Positions 3,001-62,229 of a stretch of DNA of 64,000 nucleotides are shown one piece after another (within the stretch, counting starts at the first letter, position 1; each line of letters begins with the position of its first letter). Position numbers and translations under genes: made by a program. Source of the stretch: Paramacrobiotus metropolitanus (lineage: Eukaryota; Tardigrada; Eutardigrada; Parachela; Macrobiotidae). The notes beneath the pieces were generated by a model, which saw nothing but the letters and a program-made list of their open reading frames with translations, did not search any database and had not been told where the DNA came from. The stretch spans positions 124,001 through 188,000 of the forward strand of contig NW_026570383.1 in NCBI RefSeq assembly GCF_019649055.1. Direction: 5' to 3'.

Positions 3001-6000
3001 GTGCCGTGTGGTGGTACGCGGCCGTCAACGACTTCCGCCCAGTGCCGGGTGGTGGTACGCGGCCGTCAACGACTTCCGTCCAGTTCCGGGTGGTTTTACG
3101 CGGCCGTTAACTACTTCCGCCCAGTGCCGGGTGGTGGTACGCAACCGTTAACGACTTCCGCCCAGTGCCGGGTGGTGGTACGCGGCCGTCAACGACTTCC
3201 GCCCAGTGCCGGGTGGTGGTACGCGGCCGTTAACGACTTCCGCCCAGTGCCGGGTGGTGGTACGCGGCCGTCAACGACTTCCGCCCAGTGCCGGGTGGTG
3301 GTACGCGGCCGTCAACGACTTCCGCCCAGTGCCGGGTGGTGGTACGCGGCCGTCAACGACTTCCGCCCAGTGCCGGGTGGTGGTACGCGGCCGTCAACGA
3401 CTTCCGCCCAGTGCCGGGTGGTGGTACGCGGCCGTCAACGACTTCCGCCCAGTGCCGGTGTGGTGGTACGCGGCCGTCAACGACTTCCGCCCAGTGCCGG
3501 GTGGTGGTACGCGGCCGTCAACGACTTCCGCCCAGTGCCGGGTGGTGGTACGCGGCCGTCAACGACTTCCGCCCAGTGCCGGGTGGTGGTACGCAACCGT
3601 TAACGACTTCCGCCCAGTGCCGGGTGGTGGTGCGCGGCCGTCAACGACTTCCGCCCAGTGCCGGGTGGTGGTACGCAACCGTTAACGACTTCCGCCCAGT
3701 GCCGGGTGGTGGTGCGCGGCCGTCAACGACTTCCGCCCAGTGCCGGGTGGTGGTACGCGGCCGTCAACGACTTCCGCCCAGTGCCGGGTGGTGGTACGCG
3801 GCCGTCAACGACTTCCGCCCAGTGCCGGGTGGTGGTACGTGGCCGTCAACGACTTCCGCCCAGTGCCGTGTGGTGGTACGCGGCCGTCAACGACTTCCGC
3901 CCAGTGCCGGGTGGTGGTACGCGGCCGTCAACGACTTCCGCCCAGTGCCGGGTGGTGGTACGCGGCCGTTAACGACTTCCGCCCAGTGCCGGGTGGTGGT
4001 ACGCGGCCGTCAACGACTTCCGCCCAGTGCCGGGTGGTGGTACGCGGCCGTCAACGACTTCCGCCCAGTGCCGGGTGGTGGTACGCGGCCGTCAACGACT
4101 TCCGCCCAGTGCCGGGTGGTGGTACGCGGCCGTCAACGACTTCCGCCCAGTGCCGGGTGGTGGTACGCAACCGTCAACGACTTCCGCCCAGTGCCGGGTG
4201 GTGGTGCGCGGCCGTCAACGACTTCCGCCCAGTGCCGGGTGGTGGTACGCGGCCGTCAACGACTTCCGCCCAGTGCCGGGTGGTGGTGCGCGGCCGTCAA
4301 CGACTTCCGCCCAGTGCCGGGTGGTGGTACGCGGCCGTCAACGACTTCCGCCCAGTGCCGGGTGGTGGTACGCGGCCGTCAACGACTTCCGCCCAGTGCC
4401 GGGTGGTGGTACGCGGCCGTCAACGACTTCCGCCCAGTGCCGGGTGGTGGTACGCAACCGTTAACGACTTCCGCCCAGTGCCGGGTGGTGGTGCGCGGCC
4501 GTCAACGACTTCCGCCCAGTGCCGGGTGGTGGTACGCGGCCGTTAACTACTTCCGCCCAGTGCCGGGTGGTGGTGCGCGGCCTTCAACGACTTCCGCCCA
4601 GTGCCGGGTGGTGGTACGCGGCCGTCAACGACTTCCGCCCAGTGCCGGGTGGTGGTACGCGGCCGTTAACGACTTCCGCCCAGTGCCGGGTGGTGGTACG
4701 TGGCCGTCAACGACTTCCGCCCAGTGCCGGTGGTGGTACGCGGCCGTCAACGACTTCCGCCCAGTGCCGGGTGGTGGTACGCGGCCGTCAACGACTTCCG
4801 CCCAGTGCCGGGTGGTGGTACGCGGCCGTCAACGACTTCCGCCCAGTGCCGGGTGGTGGTACGCGGCCGTCAACGACTTCCGCCCAGTGCCGGGTGGTGG
4901 TACGCAACCGTTAACGACTTCCGCCCAGTGCCGGGTGGTGGTACGCGGCCGTCAACGACTTCCGCCCAGTGCCGGGTGGTGGTACGGCCGTCAACCACTT
5001 CCGCCCAGTGCCGTGTGGTGGTACGCGGCCGTCAACGACTTCCGCCCAGTGTCGGGTGGTGGTACGCGGCCGTCAACGACTTCCGTCAGTGCCGGGTGGT
5101 GTACGCGGCCGTTAACTACTTCCGCCCAGTGCCGGGTGGTGGTACAACCGTTAACGACTTCCGCCCAGTGCCGGGTGGTGGTACGCGGCCGTCAACGACT
5201 TCCGGCCCAGTGCCGGTGGTGGTGCGCGGCCGTCAACGACTTCCGCCCAGTGCCGGGTGGTGGTAACCGTTAACGACTTCCGCCCAGTGCCGGGTGGTGG
5301 TACGGCCGTCAACGACTTCCGCCCAGTGCCGGGTGGTGGTACGCGGCTGTCAACGACTTCCGCCCAGTGCCGGGTGGTGGTACGCGGCCGTCAAACTTCC
5401 GCCCAGTGCCGGGTGGTGGTACGCGGCCGTCAACGACTTCCGCCCAGTGCCGGGTGGTGGTGCGCGGCCGTCAACGACTTCGCCCAGTGCCGGGTGGTGG
5501 TACGCAACCGTTAACGACTTCCGCCCAGTGCCGGGTGGTGGTGCGCGGCCGTCAACGACTTCCGCCCAGTGCCGGTGGTAGTGCGGCCGTTAACGACTTC
5601 CGCCCAGTGCCGGTGGTGGTACGCGGCCGTCAACGACTCCGCCCAGTGCCGGGTGGTGGTACGGCCGTTAACGACTTCGCCCAGTGCTGTGGTGGTGGTA
5701 CGCGGCCGTCAACGACTCCGTGGTCCGGGTGGTGGTGCGCGGCCGTTACGACTCCGCTTAGTGCCGGGTGGTGGTACGCGGCCGTCAACGACTTCAGCCC
5801 AGTGCCGGGTGGTGGTACGCAACCGTTAACGACTTCCGCCCAGTGCCGGGTGGTGGCACGCGGCCGTCAACGACTTCCGCCCAGTGCCGGGTGGTGGTAC
5901 GCGGCCGTCAACGACTTCCGCCCAGTGCCGGTGGTGGTACGTGGCCGTCAACGACTTCCGCCCAGTGCCGGGTGGTGGTACGCAACCGTTAACGACTTCC

Positions 6001-9000
6001 GCCCAGTGCCGGGTGGTGGTACGCGGCCGTCAACGACTTCCGCCCAGTGCCGGTGGTGGTACGTGGCCGTCAACGACTTCCGCCCAGTGCCCGGTGGTGG
6101 TACGCGGCCGTCAACGACTTCCGCCCAGTGCCGGGTGGTGGTACGCGGCCGTCAACGACTTCCGCCCAGTGCCGGGTGGTGGTACGCGGCCGTCAACGAC
6201 TTCCGCCCAGTGCCGGGTGGTGGTACGCAACCGTTAACGACTTCCGCCCAGTGCCGGGTGGTGGTACGCGGCCGTCAACGACTTCCGCCCAGTGCCGGGT
6301 GGTGGTACGCGACCGTCAACGACTTCCGCCCAGTGCCGGTGGTGGTACGTGGCCGTCAACGACTTCCGCCCAGTGCCGGGTGGTGGTACGCAGCCGTTAA
6401 CGACTTCCGCCCAGTGCCGGGTGGTGGTACGCGGCCGTCAACGACTTCCGCCCAGTGCCGGGTGGTGGTACGCGGCCGTTAACGACTTCCGCCCAGTGCC
6501 GGGTGGTGGTACGCGGCCGTCAACGACTTCCGCCCAGTGCCGGGTGGTGGTACGCGGCCGTCAACGACTTCCGCCCAGTGCCGGTGTGGTGGTACGCGGC
6601 CGTTAACGACTTCCGCCCAGTGCCGGTGGTGGTACGCGGCCGTCAACGACTTCCGCCCAGTGCCGGTGGTGGTACGCGGCCGTCAACGACTTCCGCCCAG
6701 TGCCGGTGGTGGTACGCGGCCGTCAACGACTTCCGCCCAGTGCCGGTGGTGGTACGCGGCCGTCAACGACTTCCGCCCAGTGCCGGGTGGTGGTACGCGG
6801 CCGTCAACGACTTCCGCCCAGTGCCGGGTGGTGGTACGCGGCCGTCAACGACTTCCGCCCAGTGCCGGGTGGTGGTACGCGACCGTCAACGACTTCCGCC
6901 CAGTGCCGGGTGGTGGTACGCGGCCGTCAACGACTTCCGCCCAGTGCCGGGTGGTGGTACGCGGCCGTTAACCACTTCCGCCCAGTGCCGGGTGGTGGTA
7001 CGCAACCGTCAACGACTTCCGCCCAGTGCCGGTGGTGGTACGCGGCCGTCAACGACTTCCGCCCAGTGCCGGGTGGTGGTACGCGGCCGTCAACGACTTC
7101 CGCCCAGTGCCGTGGTGGTACGCGGCCGTCAACGACTTCCGCCCAGTGCCGGTGGTGGTACGCGGCCGTCAACGACTTCCGCCCAGTGCCGGGTGGTGGT
7201 ACGCGGCCGTCAACGACTTCCGCCCAGTGCCGGGTGGTGGTACGCGGCCGTTAACGACTTCCGCCCAGTGCCGGGTGGTGGTACGCGGCCGTCAACGACT
7301 TCCGCCCAGTGCCGGGTGGTGGTACGCGGCCGTCAACGACTTCCGCCCAGTGCCGGGTGGTGGTACGCGGCCGTCAACGACTTCCGCCCAGTGCCGGTGG
7401 TGGTACGCGGCCGTCAACGACTTCCGCCCAGTGCCGGGTGGTGGTACGCGGCCGTCAACGACTTCCGCCCAGTGCCGGGTGGTGGTACGCGGCCGTCAAC
7501 GACTTCCGCCCAGTGCCGGGTGGTGGTACGCGGCCGTCAACGACTTCCGCCCAGTGCCGGGTGGTGGTACGCGGCCGTCAACGACTTCCGCCCAGTGCCG
7601 GGTGGTGGTACGCGGCCGTCAACGACTTCCGCCCAGTGCCGGGTGGTGGTACGCGGCCGTCAACGACTTCCGCCCAGTGCCGGTGGTGGTACGCGGCCGT
7701 CAACGACTTCCGCCCAGTGCCGGGTGGTGGTACGCGGCCGTCAACGACTTCCGCCCAGTGCCGGGTGGTGGTACGCGGCCGTCAACGACTTCCGCCCAGT
7801 GCCGGTGGTGGTACGCGGCCGTCAACGACTTCCGCCCAGTGCCGGGTGGTGGTACGCGGCCGTTAACTACTTCCGCCCAGTGCCGGGTGGTGGTACGCAA
7901 CCGTTAACGACTTCCGCCCAGTGCCGGGTGGTGGTGCGCGGCCGTCAACGACTTCCGCCCAGTGCCGGGTGGTGGTGCGCGGCCGTTAACGACTTCCGCC
8001 CAGTGCCGGGTGGTGGTACGCGGCCGTCAACGACTTCCGCCCAGTGCCGGGTGGTGGTACGCGGCCGTCAACGACTTCCGCCCAGTGCCGGGTGGTGGTA
8101 CGCGGCCGTCAACGACTTCCGCCCAGTGCCGGTGGTGGTACGCGGCCGTTAACGACTTCCGCCCAGTGCCGGGTGGTGGTACGCGGCCGTTAACGACTTC
8201 CGCCCAGTGCCGGTGGTGGTACGCGGCCGTCAACGACTTCCGCCCAGTGCCGGTGGTGGTACGCGGCCGTCAACGACTTCCGCCCAGTGCCGGGTGGTGG
8301 TACGCGGCCGTCAACGACTTCCGCCCAGTGCCGGGTGGTGGTACGCGGCCGTCATGACTTCCGCCCAGTGCCGGTGTGGTGGTACGCGGCCGTCAACGAC
8401 TTCCGCCCAGTGCCGGTGGTGGTACGCGGCCGTCAACGACTTCCGCCCAGTGCCGGGTGGTGGTACGCGGCCGTCAACGACTTCCGCCCAGTGCCGGGTG
8501 GTGGTACGCGGCCGTTAACGACTTCCGCCCAGTGCCGGGTGGTGGTACGCGGCCGTCAACGACTTCCGCCCAGTGCCGGGTGGTGGTACGCGGCCGTCAA
8601 CGACTTCCGCCCAGTGCCGGGTGGTGGTACGCGGCCGTTAACGACTTCCGCCCAGTGCCGGTGGTGGTACGCAACCGTCAACGACTTCCGCCCAGTGCCG
8701 GGTGGTGGTACGCGGCCAACGACTTCCGCCCAGTGCCGGGTGGTGGTACGCGGCCGTTAACGACTTCCGCCCAGTGCCGGTGGTGGTGCGCGGCCGTCAA
8801 CGACTTCCGCCCAGTGCCGGGTGGTGGTACGCGGCCGTCAACGACTTCCGCCCAGTGCCGGTGGTGGTACGCGGCCGTCAACGACTTCCGCCCAGTGCCG
8901 GTGGTGGTACGCGGCCGTCAACGACTTCCGCCCAGTGCCGGGTGGTGGTACGCAAGCCGTCAACGACTTCCGCCCAGTGCCGGGTGGTGGTACGCGGCCG

Positions 9001-10972
9001 TCAACGACTTCCGCCCAGTGCCGGGTGGTGGTACGCGGCCGTTAACGACTTCCGCCCAGTGCCGGGTGGTGGTACGCGGCCGTCAACGACTTCCGCCCAG
9101 TGCCGGGTGGTGGTACGCGGCCGTCAACGACTTCCGCCCAGTGCCGGGTGGTACGCGGCCGTCAACGACTTCCGCCCAGTGCCGGGTGGTGGTACGCGGC
9201 CGTCAACGACTTCCGCCCAGTGCCGGGTGGTGGTACGCGGCCGTCAACGACTTCCGCCCAGTGCCGGGTGGTGGTACGCGGCCGTCAACGACTTCCGCCC
9301 AGTGCCGGGTGGTGGTACGCGGCCGTCAACGACTTCCGCCCAGTGCCGGGTGGTGGTACGCGGCCGTCAACGACTTCCGCCCAGTGCCGGGTGGTGGTAC
9401 GCGGCCGTCAACGACTTCCGCCCAGTGCCGAGTGGTGGTACGCGGCCGTTAACGACTTCCGCCCAGTGCCGGGTGGTGGTACGCGGCCGTCAACGACTTC
9501 CGCCCAGTGCCGGGTGGTGGTACGCGGCCGTCAACGACTTCCGCCCAGTGCCGGGTGGTGGTACGCGGCTGTTAACGACTTCCGCCCAGTGCCGGGTGGT
9601 GGTACGCGGCCGTCAACGACTTCCGCCCAGTGCCGGGTGGTGGTACGCGGCCGTCAACGACTTCCGCCCGGTGCCGGGTGGTGGTACGCGGCCGTCAACG
9701 ACTTACGCCCAGTGCCGGGTGGAGGTACGCGGCCGTCAACGACTTCCGCCCAGTGCCGGGGTGGTGGTACGCGGCCGTCAACGACTTCCGCCCAGTGCCG
9801 GTGGTGGTACGCGGCCGTCAACGACTTCCGCCCAGTGCCGGGTGGAGGTACGCGGCCGTCAACGACTTACGCCCAGTGCCGGGGTGGTGGTGCGCGGCCG
9901 TCAACGACTGCCGCCCAGTGCCGGGTGGAGGTACGCGGCCGTTAACGACTTCCGCCCAATGCCGGGGTGGTGGTGCGCGGCCGTCAACGACTTCCGCCCG
10001 GTGCCGGGTGGTGTTACGCGGCCGTTAACGACTTACGCCCAGTGCTGGGTGGAGGTACGCGGCCGTTAACGACTTCCGCCCAGTGCCGGGTGGTGGTGCG
10101 CGGCCGTCAACGACTTACGCCCAGTGCTGGGTGGAGGTACGCGGCCGTTAACGACTTCCGCCCAGTGCCGGGTTGGTGGTGCGCGGCCGTCAACGACTTC
10201 CGCCCAGTGCCGGGTGGTGGTGCGCGGCCGTCAACGACTTCCGCCCAGTGCCGGGTGGTGGTGCGCGGCCGTCAACGACTTCCGCCCAGTGCCGGTGGTG
10301 GTACGCGGCCGTCAACGACTTCCGCCCAGTGCCGGGTGGTGGTACGCGGCCGTCAACGACTTCCGCCCAGTGCCGGTGGTGGTACGCGGCCGTCAACGAC
10401 TTCCGCCCAGTGCCGGGTGGTGGTACGCGGCCGTCAACGACTTCCGCCCAGTGCCGGGTGGTGGTACGCGGCCGTCAACGACTTCCGCCCAGTGCCGGGT
10501 GGAGGTACGCGGCCGTTAACGACTTCCGCCCAGTGCCGGGTGGTGGTACGCGGCCGTCAACGACTTACGCCCAGTGCCGGGTGGAGGTACGCGGCCGTTA
10601 ACGACTTCCGCCCAGTGCCGGGGTGGTGGTGCGCGGCCGTCAACGACTTCCGCCCAGTGCCGGGTGGAGGTACGCGGCCGTTAACGACTTCCGCCCAGTG
10701 CCGGGGTGGTGGTGCGCGGCCGTCAACGACTTCCGCCCGGTGCCGGGTGGTGGTACGCGGCCGTCAACGACTTACGCCCAGTGCCGGGTGGAGGTACGCG
10801 GCCGTTAACGACTTCCGCCCAGTGCCGGGTGGTGGTGCGCGGCCGTCAACGACTTCCGCCCAGTGCCGGGTGGTGGTACGCGGCCGTCAACGACTTCCGC
10901 CCAGTGCCGGGTGGTGGTACGCGGCCGTCAACGACTTCCGCCCAGTGCCGGGTGGTGGTACGCGGCCGTCAA
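1..10972. repeat. 41-bp GC-rich tandem satellite array
   Basis: About 265 head-to-tail copies of a 41-bp unit that starts GCGGCCGTCAACGACTTCCG and continues through CCCAGTGCCGGGTGGTGGTAC. The array is cut by the left edge of the window, so its full length is unknown. It ends abruptly at about 10972 in unrelated AT-rich DNA. Common variants are CAACCGTTAAC for CGGCCGTCAAC, GTGCGCGG for GTACGCGG, and 40-bp units with GCCGGTGG in place of GCCGGGTGG. Because 41 is not a multiple of 3 and the unit has no stop in most frames, open frames of up to 664 codons arise by chance in all three forward frames. All carry the same 41-residue periodic translation, so I do not treat them as genes. Satellite DNA of this kind is usually heterochromatic; its place on the chromosome cannot be told from here. 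Confidence 0.97.
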
Positions 10973-13410: not shown

Positions 13411-15156
13411 CTAGGTTTCTCGCGTTACCTCAGGGAGCAACTTAAGAGCATGACAGGAATCCTGATTTTCGCTTAGGAGAGCCAGCGATTTGGTTAACTG
13501 ATGCAGCTGCGCTTCGCTCGGTGCCGGCAATGTCGCCTCCAGAGCATCAAACAGTGCGCATCCGTGATGATCCGACATCGTCACTCGAACTGACGGGATC
13601 TTGAACAACAATTGGCTTTTCATACCGACGAAATCCAACCTGCGATGGCAAAACAACCCGCGGCTGCAATACTGCAGCTGGATGTCACAGCCGACAAAGT
13701 GGATACCACTACAGGGACGGTGGCTCCACGATGCGGCGAAGCCTTCAAAACGAGTCCAGCATTTTAACAGCTGATCCGGCTCGCTGTCTGGCACATGACA
13801 GGTACCAGCGGTGTCACGCGTACTGCACTGATCGCTGCCGACCGTTAGCTCAAACTTTGCACCCACCAAATAGATGACGGCCGGTTTCACTGCTGTATCG
13901 CGTTGCGCAATAAACTCGATCACATCAAACACTTCCGGGTAATGTTGCCCGCGAACTCCACTGACGACAATGATACGTTTTGTGGTGGAACGCAGGCATT
14001 TAAAAATCGGCGCTGTCAGCGAGTAAACCACAAAGTCGAGCCAGGCTTTATCCAGGCAGTCCCGTCCAAAGCTTTTCACGGTAATATTCTGCATCAACGG
14101 CGCGGATTGTAAAAGAGCGTTCCACAAAGTGCACACGCCGCGCTGTTGCGTTTGTTCGACAGTGTCCAAGTAGGAAAACACCTCCAGCAGCAACTCTGTC
14201 GGGAGCACATGGAGATTATCCGCGGTCAGGAGACCGTCGGGCGCTGTGCCTATCTCCGCAAGAATCTTTAGAAGACGTTGAGCCAGCATTTCGTCCAAGC
14301 GGTCACAGAACTCCTGTGCAATAACAAAACAGCTGGTTCGTTGTGAGAAGCTCGCGTAAAGCCTGACATCTAAATTCTTACGGAAGACCACAATTTCTTT
14401 GGCTCCAGGTGCTGACGGTACAAAAACCACACACGCTCATTCTCCATATCCAGATGAAGCATTCCCTTAGTAGTTCCCGGTATTTCCTGGTATCTGCTGA
14501 TGGGTTCAGACAGTTTTCCAGCTGCCGCCGCGTTGAACGTTTCCGGGAGTGGCACATCGCGCTTCACATATTCCCACTTTCTAACGGCTACAGGAGACAT
14601 CTGTCCTGCGACTCCACCTACAATTTGCGATATCTCATTTATTTGCAGCTTGCAGGTATCGCACGATTCAGCGCGCAAATTGTCTGGCGAATTTACCTGT
14701 ATCGGTAGGCGCATATCCAGCGGGAGGCAAGTGACCAATGCTGTCCCACCATGTGCTCTGCCTTCTCCCTCGAATTCGATTCGGCAGGAGAATGTCTGTG
14801 AAGCGAGATCCGTTCCTCCACCATGTCACCACTGCAGTGTCCTGGGAAGGAATAAAAAACCACGCCCCAAAAGTGAACGCTTCACCCGGGAACCATAACC
14901 ACGGGCCTGCCGGAGTCTCTCGCAGCAGTACTTCTACGGGGACAGTAGAACCACCATAATGGCTAGGCCGTAAAATGTGCCCCTCCGACAGGTCACGGAA
15001 TATTTGGTTAAACGGCGTTAATTCGCGTCGTCGGTTGGGACATAAAAAATCGATGAAAAACCCGGTATCAGCCACATCCACGACACGCCCGCGGCGGAAC
15101 CAACCATCGTCTCCCAGTATATCCACATCCATCAAATCGCGCGCGATGTCGGACAT
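13411..15156 (-). CDS. F-box protein, three exons, 532 aa
   Basis: Exons at 15156-14697, 14617-14382 and 14313-13411 join in frame. Introns of 79 and 68 bp start ACAG/GTAAAT and TCC/GTAAGA and end TTGTAG and TTGCACAG. The predicted protein has 532 residues. The F-box lies at about residues 269-305 (LPTELLLEVFSYLD then CTLWNALL). F-box proteins usually dock substrates onto SCF ubiquitin ligases through Skp1. The N-terminal part (about residues 15-55) reads GWFRRGRVVDVADTGFFIDF followed by RRELTPFNQIF, which resembles a Tudor/Agenet-like chromatin-reader fold; that assignment is tentative. The C-terminal ~220 residues have no leucine-rich or kelch repeats that I can see, so the substrate is unknown. 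The start at 15156 is preceded by a TATA box about 75 bp upstream. The three exons fall in two different reading frames, so the introns are needed to connect them. Confidence 0.85.
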
Positions 15157-26000: not shown

Positions 26001-26484
26001 TCTACCGTTCTGTACTACCTATACGTTCTCCGTTCTACATCAGTAAATACATTATGTTTCGGAAAGCTCAACGAATTTACAATCATCGGTCATTATCGTT
26101 GCCAACTTGCCGGTTGCTGATGAGCAACATTGCCTAATTTCCCAGCAGCGTAACGACAAAACAGAAGTGACTTTGTACCAAATACGGGTATCTTTTACAA
26201 TCGGTGAGCGCTCCTGTGACAAGTTATTTACTGACAGAGAGCGTGAAGCATAACATATTAAACAGGGCTAGATCGTTCTTGTCCAAGCAATACCGTTCTT
26301 GTCCAAGCGTCATCCGTGAATAGAAATGCCCATCCAGCGCGACTGTCGATGGAAACGGATCTGCTCCTCGATAGTCGATACTGTACACTTGTCACGTCTT
26401 TAGCTAAACGGCATAATATTTTATTATGTCCGCTGAGCACGCCACGGTCTTTTGTTCCGTGTCCGTGGAGTGGTCCTTTTGAAG
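23075..26484. other. Intergenic, no gene seen
   Basis: AT-rich. It contains a perfect 35-bp palindrome at 24151-24185, a small inverted repeat at about 24742-24774 (GTTTGCGTGG / CCACGCAAAC), and at 23603-23632 a copy of the dispersed motif CGACCGGAGCGCAGCGAAGG described in the findings. Open frames on both strands at 24555-24856 overlap and have no recognisable similarity. Confidence 0.5.
24151..24185. repeat. Perfect 35-bp palindrome
   Basis: TGTTGGCCTATACATGG and its exact reverse complement are separated by a single C. The 17-bp arms are perfect, so the site could extrude as a cruciform or form a hairpin in RNA. Confidence 0.85.
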
Positions 26485-26862
26485 ATGTCAAACTCAACAA
26501 CAGCTATAGTGACCTTTATTGCCGATGTCTCCAGCGATTCGCCCCTGAATGTTGTCTTATTTGAAATCGGTTCGGGAGGCAACCGTACACAATGCAGCAC
26601 CAGGATCGAGAAAACACCGTATTACGGGCTCAGCATTTCGAAGTATTTTAGACTAGCGCTTCCACACGTTAGAAAAAACGAACTAGAAATCGTGATGCAC
26701 TGATGGCAGCGTTACTGGGATAAGCAAAACGCAGATGTATTTTTGAGCGCGCGTACGCTGCGTGAATTCCCGGCGGCGACGTTGCCGTGGATGCATTTAG
26801 CGCGTTTCAGGTTCTACGTCAAACCAGAAGTCGGTTTTTATCAGCAGCCAACTTGTTTTTAA
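26485..26862 (+). pseudogene. Relic of a receptor guanylate cyclase N-terminus
   Basis: From ATG 26485 the plus strand reads MSNSTTAIVTFIADVSSDSP then LNVVLFEIG and GGNRT. This closely parallels the N-terminus of the cyclase at 62109 ([30 protein letters not shown]), signal peptide included. Similarity fades after about 40 residues. The frame meets TGA at 26701-26703 and then stays open as WQRYWDKQNADVFLSARTL to a second stop near 26862. No downstream ligand-binding, transmembrane or catalytic exons were found nearby. I read it as a decayed partial duplicate. A short functional gene encoding a secreted ligand-binding fragment is possible but less likely. Confidence 0.6.
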
Positions 26863-37451: not shown

Positions 37452-38898
37452 TCACTGCCCGCTGGTAGTGGTAATATTTGTTGCGCTTCGGCAGCCGGAA
37501 GATCCTTCATAGTTCGCTTCTTTCAGTTGAAGGACGAAGGTGCCGTAAGAAAACAGAACACCCAGTATCTGCAGGTCAGGTACATAATGAAGTTATTAAA
37601 TATGCAGATGATATTGCCTTTACGATGGAAATAAAAAATAATCATTCAGTGTCACCACTACACTCGTACGTACCAGGAATGTACTTGTAAGCATTACGCA
37701 ACATGCATGTTTACCGTTGCGAGAAACGACCGATCAACGAGGACAACGCCTGCCAGGGAAAACCCGGCAGGATTTGCTATGGTCCAGTACAAGTTTGTAA
37801 ACATTTTCATGGATCGTTCCGCGTTGGCTTCCCGATTGGTTAACACTCGGAGTTCCTTTGCAAGATTAGCCTATAATAAATACGTCACCGCAACTGTACA
37901 TTACTGTACAATTGACGTAGAAAGTAAGAACTTACGTTTTCCTGAACATGAATCATAGCAAAAGCAATGACAAGCGTAAACACGATCAAAATCAATGTGT
38001 TGTAAATCTGAATTCCCCTTGCGATTTGAATGGATGCCGCTGTCGTATTGGCAAAATTATTGATGGTCCACACAAGGAATACGACCGACTGGAGGAACAG
38101 CAAGAGCAAAAATGTGCCCATGTGTTCAGATAAACGTTTGATTAGCTCGCACATCTCGAAGTAGTCAGCTAGGGTCTTCTTTTCCCCAGGTTTATTTTGA
38201 TCCAATGCAAGACGCTGTCGCATTCGTGACAGTAAACGACCGATGATGAAACATACGGTGAGGAACAAGGCTTCGACAAACAGCCATAAAGACATGCGAA
38301 GGACAATGAAAGCGCCATGAATATCCTGAATTACATGGTTTTTAAAAAAGCTGACTCCGTACTGATACGCTATAAATTCTGTTTCACTAATGCTGAGATA
38401 GAGGAATGTGCTGTTATACCAGACGATATATTGCAGCGACCAAATACTCAATGCTGAAAGCGTCACCGCGGACGCAAGTAGCATTAAGTGCAGTTCCCGT
38501 TGGGTAAAGTATTCCGCTTCAAACTGGCGGATGCGCTGGATTGTATTGCGTATTTCTTTCCATTCAACCGCAACAATCACGCTTCCCAGTAGAGATGCAA
38601 CATCGCGCTGCTTTATACTCAGCAAATAAAAGAAGTTGTCCATCGTTCCTGTCAAATCGTGGAGGAAAAGCGGCACGGTCACGGCAGCTACGTGAAGGAG
38701 TTTGATCAACGTGAAGATGAAAATCCAGGAATGAGCTGCGATGGCATTCCAGCGCCATTTGCCGGGTGCTTGGTGGTCCACAGCCCATAACGGACAGAGA
38801 CCGCTGATTTTCAGGGACAGCTCCCAAAAGTTAATCAGATGATCGAGAAACCGGCTAGTTGTCTTTTTACGAAGTCCTTTATTCCTTGTTATGTCCAT
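37452..38898 (-). CDS. Gustatory-receptor-like 7TM protein B, three exons, 411 aa
   Basis: Exons 38898-37936 (321 codons), 37870-37715 (52 codons) and 37568-37452 (38 codons plus stop) join at two phase-0 introns of 65 and 146 bp (AAC/GTAAGT...TTATTATAG; ACG/GTAAAC...GACCTGCAG). The protein has 411 residues, the usual length for the insect Gr family, with repeated hydrophobic segments. The last short exon carries GVLFSYGTFVLQLKE, which fits the TM7 signature of arthropod Gr proteins (Tyr-x5-Gln with hydrophobics between). Phase-0 introns near the 3' end and a short final exon are also ancestral Gr traits. In arthropods such proteins are ligand-gated cation channels for taste and internal chemosensing; the ligand here is unknown. 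The gene belongs to a same-strand cluster with paralogues at 42.1-43.6 and 44.2-45.7 kb. Assignment to Gr-like rather than another 7TM family rests on these traits and not on a search. Confidence 0.8.
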
Positions 38899-39054
38899 CG
38901 TGCATCAATTAAATGCCCGAATAGTGAGAACGTAGGGATGGTGTTAACTGTCAGGATATGGGTGGTCTATGATACTGTTGCTCAAAGCTCCACCCGAATT
39001 TTAAACACTGGGCGAGCTAGGCATTCATGGATTCCCAAGAGGCCAAAACTTTCA

Positions 39055-42106: not shown

Positions 42107-43613
42107 TTAACTTATTGTGGTAGCATTCATCGCAGTCCGTTCGCAGTTTGGAGTAAGTAGTAAGCCTGTAAACCTGCCTCCATGTATTAACTGGACAGAC
42201 CGCAGGGACCATTGGACTACAGAATGTAAACGCACCAGCATCGGTAACTCGGTTTATTGCAGATGGTTGGCGTTCTGTTCTCCTTTGGCACCTTTGTTCT
42301 ACAGCTAAAGGAAACTCGCTTACTGTTGCAATAAATGTCCGATCCACCACGACAATGCCAGCCAGGGAAAACCCAGTGGGATTGGAAGAAATCCAATACA
42401 ATTTGGTAAACATTTTCATAGATCCTTCAGCGCAAGTCTCGTGAGGGGCTAGAATATGGACTTCTCTAGTAACATCCGCCTAGAAATGCGAAAGTTCATA
42501 ACGGTTGCTGGAAGAATTATAAATGCAGTTACACAAAATAAATTCGCGGTAAACGTCTGCACTGTATCAGGCCTATATACAAATGTCTTAAATTACTATG
42601 TAAGCGACAAATCGAAACTGGAGGAATAATACTTATTTATAACGCGGCCATGTACCCGTTCATGAACATAGATCATAGTAAAGGTGACAATCAGGGTCCA
42701 AACGATGATCTCCATGGTGTTATAAGCTTGGATTCCCAATAGCAACATAGTGATGACGACCGTTTTATTCGCGTAATTATTTATTGTCCACACGAGCCAG
42801 ATAACCGACTGAAGGTAGAATAAAAGTACAAATCCACCAGTATGCTGCGATAAGATTTCCACAAGCTTACACACGTCAAAATAATTACGCAGATGTTGTC
42901 TCATAACTGCCTTATTTGTGTCCAGATTAAGGTTTTCCTTTATCCGAAACAGCAAGCGACCGATAAAACATGCAAAGATAGCGAGTAACGATGGCAGAAA
43001 ATAGACCAAGCACGTACGCATGATGGTAAAGGCAGAGTAGATATACCGTACAAACTGCCGTTTAAAAATGGCCAATCCGTATGCGTTTTCCAGAAAAGCT
43101 GTTTCCCGTCCGGTGACATACATAAAGTGGAAATTAAACCACACGATATATTGTTGACAAAATGACACCGCCGCTAACAGGATGACGGCCGTCACCGCGC
43201 ACATCAGACGCCATTCGCGCTGGGTAAAATATTTGGCTTCGTAGTGCCGGATGGATCGCATGGTGGCCTGTGTGGCCATTCTGTCGTCACAAGCAGCGTG
43301 GAAAGCAGAGATATCACTTCTCGCTCACGCGCGCAAACCTCGTAGACGAATTCGTCCATGCTTCCGGTTAATCGCTTCGTAAGCGACGGAATAGTGACGG
43401 CCGCCACATTCAGAATTTTGATTACTGTAAGTGTAACAATCCAGGAATACGCCAGGATGACCTTCCAGCGATATTTGCCAAGGGCTCGCGGATCGGAATC
43501 CACAATGGACATATTCTACAGATTTTAAGAAGTGCTTGCCAAAAGTTCAGGGTAACACTGAGAAACATACTGGTGACCTTTACTGAATGTACCTTATCGT
43601 TGTTAAGATGCAT
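42107..43613 (-). pseudogene. Gustatory-receptor-like C, broken by frameshifts and an inversion
   Basis: A close paralogue of gene D. Exon 1 starts at 43613 (MHLNNDKVHSVKV). It is interrupted by a 1-base loss after CPLW (near 43503) and a 4-base loss after LLVTTEWPH (near 43267), both judged against gene D. The remainder is intact to the donor at about 42645. Exon 2 (42479-42324, 52 codons) is clean and ends FIAT. Intron 2 and most of exon 3 are inverted: the last-exon sequence, including acceptor TTTATTGCAG and the code for MVGVLFSFGTFVLQLKETR, lies on the plus strand at about 42160-42320. The final codons (42107-42155, NCERTAMNATT-like, then stop) keep the original orientation. Short inverted repeats AGTAAGC / GCTTACT mark the breakpoints. 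This version cannot make a full receptor. Confidence 0.85.
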
Positions 43614-44177: not shown

Positions 44178-45712
44178 TTAACTAATTTTGGTGGTATTTA
44201 TCGCACTGCGATCACAGTTCGGAGCCGTTTCATAGCGAGTTTCTTTTAGCTGTAGAACAAAGGTCCCATAGGAGAACAGAACGCCAACCATCTGCAATAA
44301 CATTATCGTAGGTAAGCCGAATTATCGATGCTGGTGCGTTTGTGTCCTGTAGACCAATAGTCTCTGCGGTATATCGAGCTAATACACGGAGACAACTGCT
44401 TACTGTTGCAAGAAATGTCCAATCTACCACGACAATGCCAGCCAGGGAAAATCCAGTGGGATTGGATGGGATCCAGTACAATTTGGTAAACATTTTCACA
44501 GATCCTTCTGAGCAAGTCTCGGAAGCGGCTAGAATACGGACTTCTTTAGTTACGTTCGCCTAAAACAAAACAGCAAAAATTAACTAGGGTTTGCTGGAAA
44601 TAATCAGATATGGATAGACGCCAAACAAATTCACAGCAAATGCTAACCGTCTGCCCTCTGCACTGTATCGGGCCGGTCTAAAATGTATTACTGAGTAGAC
44701 GACATTCAAAACTGGAGATACAGGACTAATTTATTATGCGGCAATGTACCTGTTCATGGACGTTGATCATAGCAAAGGTGACAATCAAGGTCCAAACGAT
44801 GATCTCCATCGTGTTATAAGCCTGGATTCCCATTGGCAACATAGTGATGATAACTGTATTGTTCGCGTAATTATTTATCGTCCACACGAGCAAGATAACC
44901 GAGTGGAGGTAGAATACGAGAACAAATCCACCCATACGTTGCGATAAGGTTTCAACTAGCTCACACACGCAAAAATAATTACGCAGATGTTGGCTCATAA
45001 CCGCCTGATTCGTGTCCAGGCTAAGGTTTTCCTTCATCCGAAACAGTAAGCGACCGATAAGACAGCAGAAGGTAACCAGTAACGATGTCAGAAAATTCAC
45101 CAAGCAAGTACGGATTAAGGTAAAAGCGGAGTAGATGTACCGGATGAACTGCCGTTTGAAAATGGCCAATCCGTATGCATTGGCCAGAAATTCCGTTTCC
45201 CTTCCGCTGACATACATGAAGTGGAAGCTGAACCACGCGATGTATTGTTGACAAAATGACACCGCCGTTAACAGGATAACGACTGTCACCGCGCACATCA
45301 GACGCCATTCGCGTGGGGCAAAATATTCGGCTTCATAGTGTCGGATGGATCGCAGGGTGGCATGGATGTGTGGCCATTCTGCCGTCACAATCAGCGTGGA
45401 TAACAGAGATATCAGTTCTCTCTGATGTGCGCACACCACGTAGAAAAATTCTTCCATGCTGCCGGTTAATCGCTTCGTAACCGACGGAATAGTAACAGCC
45501 GCGAAATCCAGGATTTTTATTACGGTGAGAGTGATAATCCAGGAATGCGCAATGATGACATTCCAGCGATATTTGCCATGGGCTCGTGGATCGGTGGTCC
45601 ACAATGGACATATTCCACAGATTTTAAGAAGTGCTTGCCAAAAGTTTAGGGAAACACTGAGAAACTTACTGGCGACCTTTGCGGGATGTACCTTACCGTC
45701 ATTAAGATCCAT
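44178..45712 (-). CDS. Gustatory-receptor-like 7TM protein D, three exons, 410 aa
   Basis: Exons 45712-44750 (321 codons), 44559-44404 (52) and 44291-44178 (37 plus stop) have exactly the same codon counts in exons 1 and 2 as gene B. Introns are 190 and 112 bp, both phase 0 (CAG/GTACAT...TTGTTTTAG; ACA/GTAAGC...TTATTGCAG). The protein starts MDLNDGKVHPAKVASKFLSV and ends with the TM7 exon GVLFSYGTFVLQLKE followed by CDRSAINTT, parallel to CRSATNITT in gene B. Conserved points shared with B and C include CPLW, KMFTKLYW, GFSLAGIVVVD and YIAWF/YIVWF. It is intact and probably functional as a chemoreceptor subunit. Together with C it forms a tandem duplication with a ~2.1-kb unit. Confidence 0.82.
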
Positions 45713-46516
45713 GCTTAACTAGCCTGTATAAATACGAAAGCGACACAGCTGTTGGCACAGACAGACGTCCAACCGCGTTTCACTGTAACCGTTAGTCCGT
45801 CACCTGCTTGACTATACACGGGGCCTTGTGTGATTCCCAGTTTGTGCAGCACTATTGTAAGGGGAATGAAAGTGTTCGGTGGCAAGTCTCCTTTACCTTG
45901 GTTTCTGAAAATGACAAAATGTGTATTGATAGTTTTGGCTTTGGAGAACACAACTGAATTCATTAGGGAAACAACTGTAAAGCTTAGTCAGCTGATCAGT
46001 TTCAAAATTCCATAGAAGTATTCTCAGAATGTTCGAACAGACAACTACTCTGTACAGGTGCCTTTAGCTTATGGCAGCGAAGCTTATGAAAACTTAGGGT
46101 ACCCTTAGCTTATGGCGTAATCCTTGCCAAATCAGGAGCTTGTTTAATCGTAGTAACCCGTAACTCACATTTTGACAAATTAAAATATCCGAGCAAGTGG
46201 CAGCGCCCAAATACTGCTGCCGTTTTGTACGTTAATTTGTTGACGCAGCTTGGAGGAGAATAACTTTATATACGGTAATGCAGGCTCATATTAAGGAAAA
46301 TATTCTGTGTGGTATGTACTAGCACGCCTTTCTGATAATCCTGCATTTGAGGTATGTAAAAGTACGAGGTAATTCATAGTTTTCTTATGTGCAGAATTAT
46401 ATACTATATGAAGAGTTTTGCGATATTGAAAACACCATCAGCGAGCGCTGCGAACTTGACAACTCCGATTGGAACTTGCAGTGTTTGTTTCAGCTCGGCA
46501 CCTTGGAGATCTTTTT
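45713..46516. other. Spacer within receptor cluster
   Basis: AT-rich DNA upstream of gene D, presumably holding its promoter; I could not pick out a clear TATA box. A short direct repeat (GCTTATGGC...) occurs near 46065-46115. Confidence 0.4.
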
Positions 46517-55799: not shown

Positions 55800-58700
55800 T
55801 TATTCCGGGTGCTCCAAAGTGGCCTCCACAGTGGTCTGCGAGCCAGATGGCGGGACTTCATCCAGAGGTGGCGGTTCTTCCACATTCTCCGAGTTAAGCC
55901 ACCAGGTCACCATTGGACCAATTCCCTGTAAAGACAAACTAATAAATAGCCAAGAAAACCTATAAGTATGCCGGATTGGATGCATGCAAGTGATCTATCA
56001 TACAGATACGGAATACAAACTGTATACTACTGCCCGTTCAGCAAGAGGGAATTTACCTTGACATCGAGTTCACCGCGCAACGTAACGTCGAAGGTGCCGA
56101 AACCATCCAGGATGACTTTATTGTCGTCGCTAATGTGGATTTTTAATGCTGTGCTCAACAACAACGCTCCCGTTAACATTTTTTATCACGTTTACGCTAA
56201 TGCTTCACTGATTTGTAATATTATTATTATTATTATTACGGCACAAGAGCAGACAACCCCGAAGGGACTTCAAGTCTGGTCGAACAAAAACAATTTTCTG
56301 CTAACAAAATATTTAGGACAGATTGACAGATCTGAGTACAAATTTGAAAGAAGGTACAGAACTGGCTTCGATAATTTTAGGATTGACAGCAAGAATTTTT
56401 AGTTTCGCTGATTTGTGATAGTTTATGTGTACCTTCACCCATGCTTTCCATTTTGTTGGCAATCGTCACCGTTACTCCAAATCTAAAGAAACAACACGTA
56501 TGTGATCTTCCGCACGCAATAGAATAGAGTCGACGAGCAATTAGTAATAATATTATTCAACGTTTACAATATGCAAGTCTCGCCTATTTGTCATTATCTA
56601 TTTTCGTCCACTCTGTGCTCGGGATCGACGCCACGATGCAACTGCACTGTTTTACGATTAGATAATTTTGGTAATATGCTTACAAGCAGTAGCGTGGCAT
56701 CTTCAGTCCCACTACCCCAGCGACAGCCGGTCCGGAGTGATTGCCAATACGCAGTCGCAGTTGCTCCGTGGGACGATGGCGGATTCTGAAGCGTTTGATC
56801 CCCTCCAACAGCATCAGGGAGGTGCGAGCGATCTCGCGAGCGTGCAGGTTACCGTTGCGGATGGGCAGTCCACTGACAACCTGTTAAATCAGACCGATGA
56901 TCAGCGGAGCACACAAATTATATCACCGGTAGCGTAAATCCGTGCAGTTTACCATGTATGCATCCCCAATCGTTTCCACTTTATACACATCGAATCCATC
57001 CAGAATGCCGTCGAACAGTGCTGAAAAATTGAAAGCGTAATTTGTATTAATGAAGCCAGCTGGTGCGCTTTGGTTAAGTAGCGACTCAGGTTCATGCGCT
57101 GAAAGCGTTTACTTACTGTAAAGGTCATTCAGCAGATCGACCACTTGCAGCGGTGTGCTAGACGCCGACAGCGTGGTGAACCCGACAATATCGCTGAAAT
57201 AAATGGAGCACTCATCGTAAGCTTCCGGTTCCACGGTTTCTCCTTGCTTCAAGCGGTTGGCCACCGATCTAGTTCAGAAAACGTTTTTGTTTTCCAGTAC
57301 TGCCGTTAATAATATCACTTTCGGCGTTTTTACCATACCGTGGTAAGACCTCGAACAGGAGGTTCTCCGACTTCTGCTTTTCCTGGTAAACTTGCTCGGT
57401 ACGCAGCATCACCAGACCCTCCAGATCCGTGGCATAGGCTTCCATACGCTTCATTAGATTGTCCATAAGATTGCCTTGTTCCGCCCCAGGAATTTTCTTC
57501 AGCTGGCCTTTGATGTCTTTCAAAGTGGGACGCGCTTCCGGTGCCTCGCTCCATGAGTGCTCCATGATGCTGCGCAGTTCCGGGGGACAAGCGTCACCCG
57601 AAACATGTGGACGCAGCGGCGGGTCGGTGCCTTTCGCCACTTGTGCCACAATGGCTACAATACACATACTATCACTGCTTTAGATTTTATTTAGGTGTAT
57701 AATACAACCCGTGCGGAGTACGTAGATTAATATAAACCTGGGAGCGCTGGGACATTAGTAGAAACATGAAAGTTTACTGGTAACTTGTGGTAAGGAAGAA
57801 ATATACTGCCGTATAACCGTACTTTCAACGGTATTTTATTATCGTGATTCGAGCCCATTTTTGAAACTTAAAAGCGTACCGTATGGTTCCATAGGTAAGC
57901 GAGCGGGATCCGGCGAACCGTATGGATGGCATCGTAGCACTATTTCTTGCAGGATGATCGCAAAACTGTAAACATCGCCTGTAAAACAAAAAGGAAACAT
58001 CATATATTCAGCGCATACACCACCTACAGATACGGTTTAATAAGAATTTTCGTCCAATTGACCTTCTGGAGTTCCTTGCGGCGGCATCTGCGCTCGCAAG
58101 TGCTCCGGAGCACGCCATAACAGCCGTCCTTCATCCGTTTTCGCCAGCTCCACATTCTTATTCAGGAACGGTTGCAGGAAACCCAACCCGTAATCCGTAA
58201 TCTTTAGTACGAACCGGTTGTCGATCACACAGTTGGAGCTGGTCAAGTTGCCGTGTGATTTAATGGGTGAATCATGGAGGTATGCCAGGCCCTAGAGTAC
58301 CCAACATACAGCACAATATCTACCGAAGTGTACAGTAAGTAAGAATTAAATTATTAGGAAACAACTTTTTACCGATACAATGTCACCGATCAGGGAATAC
58401 CGGAACGACCAATCCAGCTTGATTGCCTCATTCTCCAGGACATCGGCCAAACTACCTTTCTGGCAGTATTCGAACAGCACCTGCACCTGGGCGTCTTCGA
58501 CGGCGATACCCACCAACGGGTTCATGTTGTCATTGTTGATGTCATGTAACTGCAATCAAAAGCCATAAAATATCATTTAGCATTGAGTATCTGTAAAGTG
58601 TCTGGCATTACCTTTTTGATTTCTTTCAGTTCTTTGCGCGTTGCATGGAAGCGTCGCGATGTCTGCAGTTTCTTGACACACACCACTTTGTTCTTGTACT

Positions 58701-61700
58701 GTGCGGTTTTGGCAAACACTTGCGAATGCCCACCAGCGGAACTTGCCCCGTCTGCGACGCTCTGCGGAGTAACAGAAAAACCAGTGAAACGGAATCGATC
58801 GATTTGTGGGTGACCTTTGTAAACAGAGAAAATCGTTCACATGGCGCTTACCATATTGCCTAGGCTTAATCGGCTGATAGACACGGAAAGACCATGTCGG
58901 TCTGATTTGGCGCTGATTTCCTCGGGAGGCACTCTCCACCATGGATCATTAATGGCTGCTTCCAGTTTACGCTTTCTAAAATATACAACAACATCGCACA
59001 ACAAGTTTATTTCGTAAAAAAAGTAGTCAAGTTCTCACCGGTAAACGAGTAACGCAATAACCGAGACAATCCCCACGAAAATTACTGCGGAGACGACGGA
59101 CGCGGCCAAGATAATGTTTTGCTCTGATGCGATTAACAATGTCATGAAGAAGTCACGGTATGCGAAGAAAGAATCCTACAAGTACCCCGAATGCAGACTG
59201 CATCGTTGTCGAGGTATCCACAGCGCGGTCGGTTAGGTGGCGGCGAATCGCGGTTGTACCACTTGATTTCGCGTTCTTTTCCCTCACTGGTCAGCACCGG
59301 GTGGATGCGCCGAGTGTCTGCACGGTACTCCAGCACCGGCTGCAGCACAATATACAGACAAAATTACTGGTTGGCGTACTGTTTCACTGTTTGGAAGCAT
59401 TTGCTCATATAATACTAAGAAGCATTCTCTGGAATTCTCTTTAAGCGGAAGATGAAGTTACATCGGGAACCTTGTTGTGACCGCCTGCTCTGACAATCTT
59501 GTCAAGAGCGTACAATGACTGCAGATTTAATGGAGAGTGATTATGCTTCCTCTGAATCTAGTTTTTAGTTCGTTCCTTCTAACGTACAGAATGGCCTAGC
59601 GTCTAATAAGCGTAGTCTGTGATCCGTTTTCTCAGTTCTGTTAACTGCAGTTACAGCTGCACTGGTGACCTGTGACCTTTGTGAATCTGCGCAATTGGCA
59701 CCTTAGTCGAATCGCAAAATAAGCAAATCGAGTGAAGATGCTTAAGTGTCTACAGCCTCTAGAGCGTTACTGGACAATCGGCTTAACACAATGTGACCAA
59801 CCTGAAATTGACCGCTGTTGTAATCCATCTGCGCGATCGAGTAGTCCGATTCTCGGTCACCGTTGGCATTCATCACGATGCGTTTCCCCTCCAGATTAAA
59901 GGTTCTGTTCCACATTTTATGAGATATCTCTTCGCCGGCCGATAAGTTGCCACCGCCGGCGTATGTTTCATTCAACACCTGCACACTTCTTCATTTAAAA
60001 CTTGTTCAACATGATCAAGCATAAATGCAGATGCATACTTGTCCGTAGATCAGAAGTGCTTCGTAGAATCCCAGCGCAAAAGGGTTAGCCTAAACGCAAA
60101 AACATCATGCAAAGCAGTAGCCTTAACAAAAAAACAGGTGTTTAACCGCCACTAACGATTTCCCGCTGGTTTGGCCGCGAGCCGTTCACTGTGTAACGCT
60201 CGCTGTTGGAGACATTGAGGAGAAGCTGCTGGGTAGTTTTCTCGCTGGCATCTTCACGTAAGGACATGATGAACATGGACTTGTAGGCTTCTTTGGCCTC
60301 CTGTTTCCCATTTAAATGTCAATTAACGTAGAAATACGAGCAGATCTTTACAAATTACCTTCAAATATCTACGTCCATATTTTATCAATAATTTCCTATC
60401 TTTTTATTTTTGTTGTTAATTAATTTCTGCATCGCATTGTCATTTTTATTTATTTATTTTTGTTACTCTTGCCTGCTCTACATCACGTGGATTACCTCGT
60501 CTCTTCCATCTATGTTGCCGGTATTCCATGAGCTATTCCCGAAGAACGTGGGGCTACGGTACACTTCGAGGGCAAAATAAACCTGCAAATCAAAGCATGG
60601 AACGATACAGCCCGTACAACGAATGCGTGGTCTCTAGCAAAGTCTTACATATTCGCCATTTGTCATGTTCTTTTCGGATGCCATTAACTGTAAAAAAAGC
60701 AACAGTGCTTGTAGCTAAAATTTTTGTAAATTGTAGATCTTGTACAGCTCCAACAAAATCTAAAGTTTTTCCGAGAATGCTTGGTGTTCATATAAACTAT
60801 CAACGCACCATAATTTGCCGGAAACGTCTACTTTCAGCAACAATGAAAATCACTGCAAGCAAAAACACACGAGCCGTTTGTAATCAAGTCAAATTCCCGG
60901 TAGAGCGCATGTATAAATACCTCTCGTTACCAAACGAAGCTGTCCCAGGTAATCGGACAGATTCCTCCTGTCGTCTGAGTTAACCAAGTAATGCGACGCG
61001 TTTATGTTGTTCTTGGGCAGTGTTGTCTTATCTTTTAGATCATAGCACAGTGGCAGAAACAGAGAAAGGTTGTCATTGGACGCGTCACACAGTACGCCGA
61101 TGGAATTATACTGATACTTCCCCAGTAGTTTCAGGAGAAAGCTGGCGAAATTCTCCGGTGTATAGGGCGACAAACGCGTCAGGGTCGGGTACCGGGTTTT
61201 ATTGAAAGCCAGCGCACTGCCCGGGACCCTGCAGTTAAGCGTACATACGCGTAACGTTAATTGAGGTTATTTTCGTATTTAACTCTACCCAAAAACATCA
61301 GTTACCCAAAGATCAGAGGCTTGTCCCAAGCTGCAAAAGATTGCCAAGTTATTTTCCAGATAGTTGTAGCACATTTTCAACTAAGGATTACAAAATGCGC
61401 TGACCTTTGGCTAAGCTAGCTACGGAATTTCCTGAAATGCTGCAGCCTATAAACAGATGAATTCAATCCCTATGAATTTAGTATCTCTTGTTGCAGTTTA
61501 TGAAATAAATATGAAATCTGGTACGTTAAAGCCAACAAAATTAAAACTTGTTTGTTTTTTAAAGGTCATGTCATGATTGCATATAAGTAACGTTAATTAG
61601 ATCTGTCTGGTTAGTTAGGCAGGTCAGTTTCTTGTTACTTTGAACAGTAAGGGTCTACCACTTATATAATATTATGGTGACGGCTAAATTTCGATTCACT

Positions 61701-62109
61701 AAAACCATGCAGACCAAAAGGCCCCAAGAAAAGACTTCGCAAGCAAAAACGAACGCCACTTACCGGGTCCGAAGATGGCCATAACGGAATCGTTAGACGA
61801 GCGTTCCCGGTAATAAAACTTGGTTGTCCAGAACGTGGCTTTAGTGTCCAGACCCATAACCCCTTTTTTCTCGTCCAGAACACACACAGAGATATTCTTA
61901 TCATATTTATGCACGTGCATGAACTTCAGATTCTCTCCATAGCGGGCATTTAACTGCTGTTCAGCGAGACTGAACGCGGGAGCTACGTTCAGGTACGACG
62001 TGGCGGTACGGTTGCCACCCAAACCGATTTCAAATAAGATAACGTTCACCGGTGAGCCACAGACGACAGCAGCAATAAAGGTCACAACAGCGATTGCTGT
62101 ATACGGCAT
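55800..62109 (-). CDS. Receptor guanylate cyclase, ~20 exons, altered catalytic motif
   Basis: Exon 1 (62109-61764) has a signal peptide ([20 protein letters not shown]) and starts an ANF-receptor-like ligand-binding region running to about 59186 (61228-60931, 60582-60496, 60300-60157, 60089-60039, 59978-59802, 59339-59186). A transmembrane helix ([20 protein letters not shown]) ends at 59039. Next come the juxtamembrane DPWWRVP, a kinase-homology domain with degenerate HGNL and TDYG (58765-57580), a dimerisation helix (about 57560-57350) and the cyclase domain. Cyclase landmarks are [46 protein letters not shown] and MPRYCLFG. Both metal aspartates and the guanine-selecting Glu and Cys are present. 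However, the normal GDTVNTASRMES reads [12 protein letters not shown] (56478-56448), so catalytic Asn and Arg are replaced. The last exons (56148-56057, 55925-55800) join in phase. The exon 1/2 and exon 7/8 joins need one extra base. Confidence 0.85.
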
Positions 62110-62229
62110 TTCTGCAAGAGGCACTAAAAGGTCACGCTGGGCATTACGAGAACGCCGCATACTTGGTCAAGAAATACTAATATTAACTGTAAATGATGGC
62201 AGCGACATGTAACACTTGAATAACGCGTG

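Follow-up and report, generated by a model that had tools for sequence, protein, structure and literature searches.

A tardigrade receptor guanylate cyclase lacking the helix-4 Asn and Arg is a candidate heterodimer subunit

We describe a receptor guanylate cyclase gene of the tardigrade Paramacrobiotus metropolitanus whose catalytic domain lacks the Asn and Arg of helix 4, as a sequence-only reading of the same DNA had observed and as our splice model and alignments confirm. We favour, with a probability of about one half, the interpretation that this intact gene specifies a natriuretic-peptide-receptor-like guanylate cyclase whose catalytic domain is an alpha-type (C1-type) half and which would work as one subunit of a heterodimer. 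This interpretation is preferred because the replaced motif resembles that of soluble guanylate cyclase (GC) alpha and of adenylyl cyclase (AC) C1 halves, and because no metal-side residue is missing. Together with a non-catalytic ligand sensor and an early pseudogene, a heterodimer subunit was among three readings that had been put forward for the altered motif, and it is the one that gains from this comparison; a plain pseudogene loses ground since the gene is intact.

RESULTS

The gene encodes a complete receptor guanylate cyclase

The window, by which we mean the whole 64-kb stretch of DNA analysed, contains a complete receptor guanylate cyclase gene at 62160-55800 on the minus strand, the strand to which all coordinates within the gene refer. 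The splice model resolves it into 23 exons encoding 1106 aa, with GT-AG borders at 22/22 introns, consistent phases and no internal stop in the 1106 codons. The start codon was taken as the first Met, at 62160, and an in-frame Met 17 residues downstream is a possible alternative. The short exon 2 (61446-61392, 55 nt) matches exons 1 and 3 in phase and frame, and supplies the rest of the GPGCS stretch in the ligand-binding domain.

The protein has four Pfam matches: ANF_receptor, two kinase models and Guanylate_cyc. The ANF_receptor match (E 1.1e-27) defines an extracellular ligand-binding domain spread over several exons (residues 60-428, 59820-61983). It is followed by a putative transmembrane segment, a hydrophobic stretch at residues ~489-514 that runs across intron 11 (58975-59115) and aligns opposite the transmembrane region of GC-A; by eye, we judged it to be the single such segment between the extracellular and kinase-homology domains. 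The kinase homology domain (residues 565-825, 57500-58734) is the union of overlapping Pkinase (565-822) and PK_Tyr_Ser-Thr (571-825) matches, agrees with the GC-A alignment and carries HGNL and DYG, the same as GC-A. The Guanylate_cyc catalytic domain occupies residues 892-1076 (55893-57231, E 1.9e-59). This order, from ANF-type extracellular domain through kinase homology to cyclase, is that of a receptor (membrane) guanylate cyclase; the Pfam matches do not include the heme-NO-binding-like N-terminus of the soluble GC alpha subunit. Further supporting the model, human NPR1 (GC-A) has the same domain order and is colinear with the tardigrade protein over residues 128-1078 (E 9.8e-222). Within a wider, 207-aa cyclase domain, identity is 138/207 to human GC-A and 113/207 to GC-C.

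Exon 21 carries an altered helix-4 motif

The altered motif lies in exon 21 (56433-56482), at the place of GDTVNTASRM in GC-A. This exon is only 50 nt long and was joined by inspection. It is bounded by the acceptor TTCTTTAG and the donor GTACACAT, is entered in phase 2 and lies in frame with exons 20 and 22, in agreement with the borders and matching phases that had been proposed for it. GC-A and GC-C both have GDTVNTASRMES where exon 21 differs, with VTIANK at helix 4. Aligned to these two enzymes, NTASR is replaced by TIANK (T1024, I1025, A1026, N1027 and K1028; 56452-56466), through the substitutions Asn to Thr (T1024, codon 56466-56464), Thr to Ile (I1025, 56463-56461), Ser to Asn (N1027, 56457-56455) and Arg to Lys (K1028, 56454-56452). 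Upstream, the Asp of GDTVN is Val (V1021, 56475-56473). The sequence-only reading had reported both TIANKM in place of NTASRM and the change to Val, and both hold; the loss of the helix Ser and the likeness to alpha and C1 halves described below had gone unmentioned there. A catalytically complete homodimeric guanylate cyclase has Asn and Arg at the positions held here by T1024 and K1028.

The five changes are confined to eight residues, 1021-1028. Among the columns of the 207-aa domain at which GC-A and GC-C agree (n=113), 5/12 are changed in the motif versus 9/101 outside it, a clustering with a one-sided Fisher p of 0.0068 for a motif window that was picked post hoc. The cyclase domain is thus conserved at 92/101 of the agreeing columns outside the motif.

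An unaltered copy of the motif in another exon would have undone this picture. A pattern search found the contiguous canonical motif in none of the six frames of the 64-kb window; an intron within the motif would hide it from such a search, but since the splice phases are consistent, a further intron there need not be invoked. Comparison of introns 20 and 21, in any frame, with an 18-residue canonical peptide gave a best score of 21, whereas exon 21 itself scored 48. No other exon supplying NTASRM was therefore found in the interval, and the window pattern search and the flanking introns speak against an alternative or mutually exclusive exon with the canonical motif. A soluble alpha gene might also have donated the motif by gene conversion. 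On either side of it the sequence (MPRYCLFG before, MESMGEALKIHIS after) is of receptor type, which makes point change the simpler explanation.

The metal-side residues are kept

Class III cyclases build each active site from two chains. In the Chlamydomonas enzyme, as described in the available text of PMC2576301, one chain provides two metal-binding Asp and a triphosphate-binding Arg, and the other provides two helix-4 residues, the Asn that orients the ribose and the transition-state Arg, and a triphosphate-binding Lys; the same division of chains and residue roles appears in the portion of PMC6592433 available to us. The catalytic residues that the former text lists for the Chlamydomonas enzyme do not include the Asp of GDTVN (PMC2576301).

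Alignment places both metal Asp in the tardigrade protein (D905, 57190-57192; D949, 56962-56964), together with the guanine-selecting Glu (E945, 56974-56976) and the guanine-pocket Cys (C1017, 56686-56688), just as had been read from the sequence. Also kept are the triphosphate-binding Arg (R996, 56749-56751) and Lys (K1065, 56057-56059), whose roles follow the available text of PMC2576301 and whose positions we matched ourselves. Apart from helix 4, then, the protein has the residues of a complete homodimeric cyclase: two metal Asp, the Glu/Cys guanine pair, and the phosphate Arg and Lys. The chain-A set (D905, D949, R996) is complete, and the missing chain-B Asn and Arg could come from a partner chain. 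In the loop that begins with K1065, the KGKG of GC-A is KGIG (residues 1065-1068), its second Lys being replaced by Ile at residue 1067 (55920-55922).

The replaced motif resembles alpha and C1 halves

We compared the motif with other class III cyclases, drawing on 16 of 55 distinct PDB sequences matched. VTIANK resembles the motifs of halves that lack the Asn and Arg, namely VTLANK in soluble GC alpha, a soluble subunit that pairs with beta, VTLANH in AC5 C1 and VDIANK in AC8 C1. In full, the motif reads GNNVTLANKFES in human soluble GC alpha, GHNVTLANKFES in a second alpha-1 chain that we take to be from an insect, SNDVTLANHMEA in AC5 C1 and SWDVDIANKLES in AC8 C1. Both metal Asp are kept in soluble GC alpha and AC8 C1, though their helix-4 Asn and Arg are absent. 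The Asn and Arg are present in GC-A, GC-C, AC5 C2, AC8 C2 and soluble GC beta; of these, AC8 C2 has Ser at both metal Asp positions, and soluble GC beta keeps the second Asp and has Thr at the phosphate Arg position.

Over the five NTASR positions, the tardigrade residues score 22 (GC alpha), 18 (AC8 C1) and 16 (AC5 C1) in BLOSUM62, versus 6 for the catalytic motif of receptor cyclases and 9 and 10 for those of C2 halves. Across a 12-residue window only GC alpha (38) outscores the canonical motifs (32-33), and the AC C1 motifs score lower (27, 29). With the positions given as changed, the chance of drawing Asn to Thr, Thr to Ile or Leu, Ser to Asn and Arg to Lys or His is ~1.5e-4 under BLOSUM62, rising to 3.4e-4 when Asp counts as a further replacement of Asn; both figures are post hoc and omit the Asp to Val change. 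Each of the five replacements is conservative or needs a single base change, so the likeness to alpha and C1 halves could reflect chance or mutation bias.

Soluble GC alpha shares with the tardigrade protein both metal Asp, the phosphate Arg, the Glu and the Cys, along with its VTLANK; it differs in that here the rest of the cyclase domain is receptor-type and stands behind extracellular and kinase-homology domains. The C1 halves of AC5 and AC8 are alike in their helix-4 motifs and, as seen for AC8, in keeping the metal Asp, but their C2 partner lies within the same polypeptide and their product is cAMP.

Relatives in other genomes and in the surrounding window

As a control, we turned to a bacterial and archaeal genome collection, in which 87 stretches matched a pattern and 43 loci encoded a relative. 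The Asn and Arg were kept with both Asp in 42/43 of these relatives, and the 43rd (L042) ends before the site. This control is narrow, being mostly Bacteroidetes at 35-41% identity, and some of its members were retrieved with patterns covering the ETIGD region, which in part builds in the retention of the second Asp. The position of the guanine Cys holds Asp in 41 of the 42 and Asn in 1, which suggests that these relatives are probably adenylyl cyclases and not receptor guanylate cyclases. Viral contigs yielded no relative; one query of that search was a poor, unspliced stretch running into intron 17.

No partner cyclase was found in the 64-kb window, where tblastn of the protein returned only fragments besides the gene itself. 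The longest of these relatives, at 26470-26598 on the plus strand, corresponds to residues 13-55 of the receptor's first exon (58% identical; 79% at the DNA level over 94 bp, 26495-26588). Over its 129 nt, differences number 15, 10 and 18 at codon positions 1, 2 and 3 (43 each). By tblastn within the window no further receptor exons lie beside it, and it is probably a decayed partial copy. The other fragment is a 25-bp copy (62303-62279, minus strand; 92%) of part of exon 3 (61120-61096), located just upstream of the gene start.

Elsewhere in the window, positions 1-10972 are a minisatellite with a 41-bp unit in ~269 copies (94% matches). It yields many long repetitive ORFs, which are not evidence of genes. 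An F-box protein is encoded at 13411-14436 on the minus strand (Pfam F-box-like, E 3.8e-07). Three related proteins, multi-pass membrane proteins by eye, are encoded at 37885-38904, 42596-43515 and 44726-45718, also on the minus strand. The protein at 44726-45718 is 46% identical (150/323) to that at 37885-38904, and 80% (170/212) and 78% (59/76) identical to two pieces of that at 42596-43515. The latter locus is split between two ORFs that overlap in different frames (43204-43515 and 42596-43324) and is frameshifted as it stands. Pfam gave no match for the three ORFs of this trio that were scanned; they are perhaps a tandem chemoreceptor family.

DISCUSSION

How might a receptor with this active site work? 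In the two-chain site of class III cyclases, chain A contributes the two metal Asp and the phosphate Arg. Chain B contributes the pair that selects the base, the Asn and Arg of helix 4, and the phosphate Lys. The tardigrade protein keeps every chain-A residue, but the Asn, Ser and Arg of the chain-B helix 4 are gone, so that both sites of a homodimer would be crippled. Paired with an ordinary receptor cyclase, the protein could form one good site, from its own metal-binding residues and the partner's Asn and Arg, and one degenerate site, which is the arrangement of soluble GC alpha/beta and of AC C1/C2. With its extracellular domain, such a pair might respond to one ligand, or two. We infer that homodimer activity has been lost, that a partner exists and that the protein functions in a heterodimer. 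The Glu, Cys and Lys of the chain-B side are also kept. A pure alpha half would have no use for the Lys, which may mean that the change is recent or that the heterodimer reading is wrong.

Receptor cyclases of this kind are not new, as nematode receptor cyclases without key residues are in print (PMC8045692). In the available parts of two reviews, receptor cyclases that lack key residues are said to act as heterodimers, and the Caenorhabditis elegans receptors ODR-1 and DAF-11, each reported to make good the catalytic residues that the other lacks, are backed by experiments with fusion proteins (PMC8045692, PMC5225109); the likeness to this pair is drawn from the descriptions in these reviews. 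One of the two adds that native cells have yet to provide formal proof and names clues that point to homodimers. Mammalian receptor cyclases are given as homodimers in PMC5225109. In Toxoplasma, the GC2 domain of TgATPaseP-GC likewise retains the two metal Asp along with the phosphate Arg and has its Asn and Arg replaced, for which a pseudo-heterodimer was proposed, but the replacements there are Leu and Met and a single chain holds both halves (PMC6592433, in the part available). The chytrid rhodopsin cyclases RGC1 and RGC2 of R. globosum are described as obligate heterodimers despite having the known relevant residues (PMC8815786, available text), so missing residues are not the sole route to a heterodimer. 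The accessible text of PMC1435932 gives background on the guanylyl cyclase family and nothing on Asn/Arg loss, and that of PMC2447327 yielded no natural Asn/Arg variants. In the open-access literature we found no title on a tardigrade guanylyl or guanylate cyclase gene of this kind, and no paper on pseudoenzyme receptor cyclases.

A different possibility is that the protein is a catalytically dead signalling receptor, which would make no cGMP in any dimer and would serve as a ligand sink, dominant-negative subunit or scaffold. The loss of helix-4 Asn, Ser and Arg together, behind intact receptor and kinase-homology domains, is what would be expected of such a protein. A purely structural cyclase domain, however, would not need the metal-side residues or the Glu, Cys and Lys, nor would it need to keep the conserved columns outside the motif (92/101), and we regard this possibility as less likely than the heterodimer. 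More doubtful still is an active homodimer of low turnover, in which Lys1028 and Thr1024 would partly stand in for Arg and Asn. The Arg to Lys change is conservative and keeps the charge, and in the RhGC-GTP complex no hydrogen bond joins the conserved Asn to the sugar, but the ribose there is contacted by the helix-4 Ser (PMC7384201, available text), the residue that is also gone here (Asn1027). Both Asn and Arg are moreover present in 42/42 bacterial relatives that reach the site. The title of a 1997 paper by Yan et al. calls them essential in adenylyl cyclase.

We assign a low probability to an early pseudogene or a copy under relaxed selection. Five motif residues are changed, and the two receptor fragments in the window make it seem that copies arise and decay nearby; the changes are, however, gathered in one helix and not spread. 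A plain pseudogene is unlikely because the introns are GT-AG in 22/22 cases, the 1106 codons are free of stops and frameshifts, no splice site is broken and the agreeing columns are largely kept. An assembly error or wrong exon choice that masks a normal motif is hardly credible: exon 21 is short and was joined by inspection, but it matches its neighbours in splice sites and phase at either end, the flanking introns do not yield the motif in any other frame, and five separate codon changes without a frameshift would be an atypical error.

If the heterodimer interpretation is right, an animal receptor cyclase may have independently evolved an alpha- or C1-type half-site, with receptor, soluble and adenylyl cyclases each reaching a one-site heterodimer through nearly the same VTxANK/H. 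We offer this convergence tentatively and consider it somewhat less probable than the heterodimer itself. Were it true, it would point to a selected structural role of the motif in the degenerate site and not to mere decay. An alpha-type half-site in a receptor subunit predicts a partner and, with it, combinatorial ligand sensing, and would open the origin of one-site asymmetry to testing. It would also provide a sequence rule, both metal Asp together with VTxANK/H at helix 4, by which such subunits may be found in other genomes.
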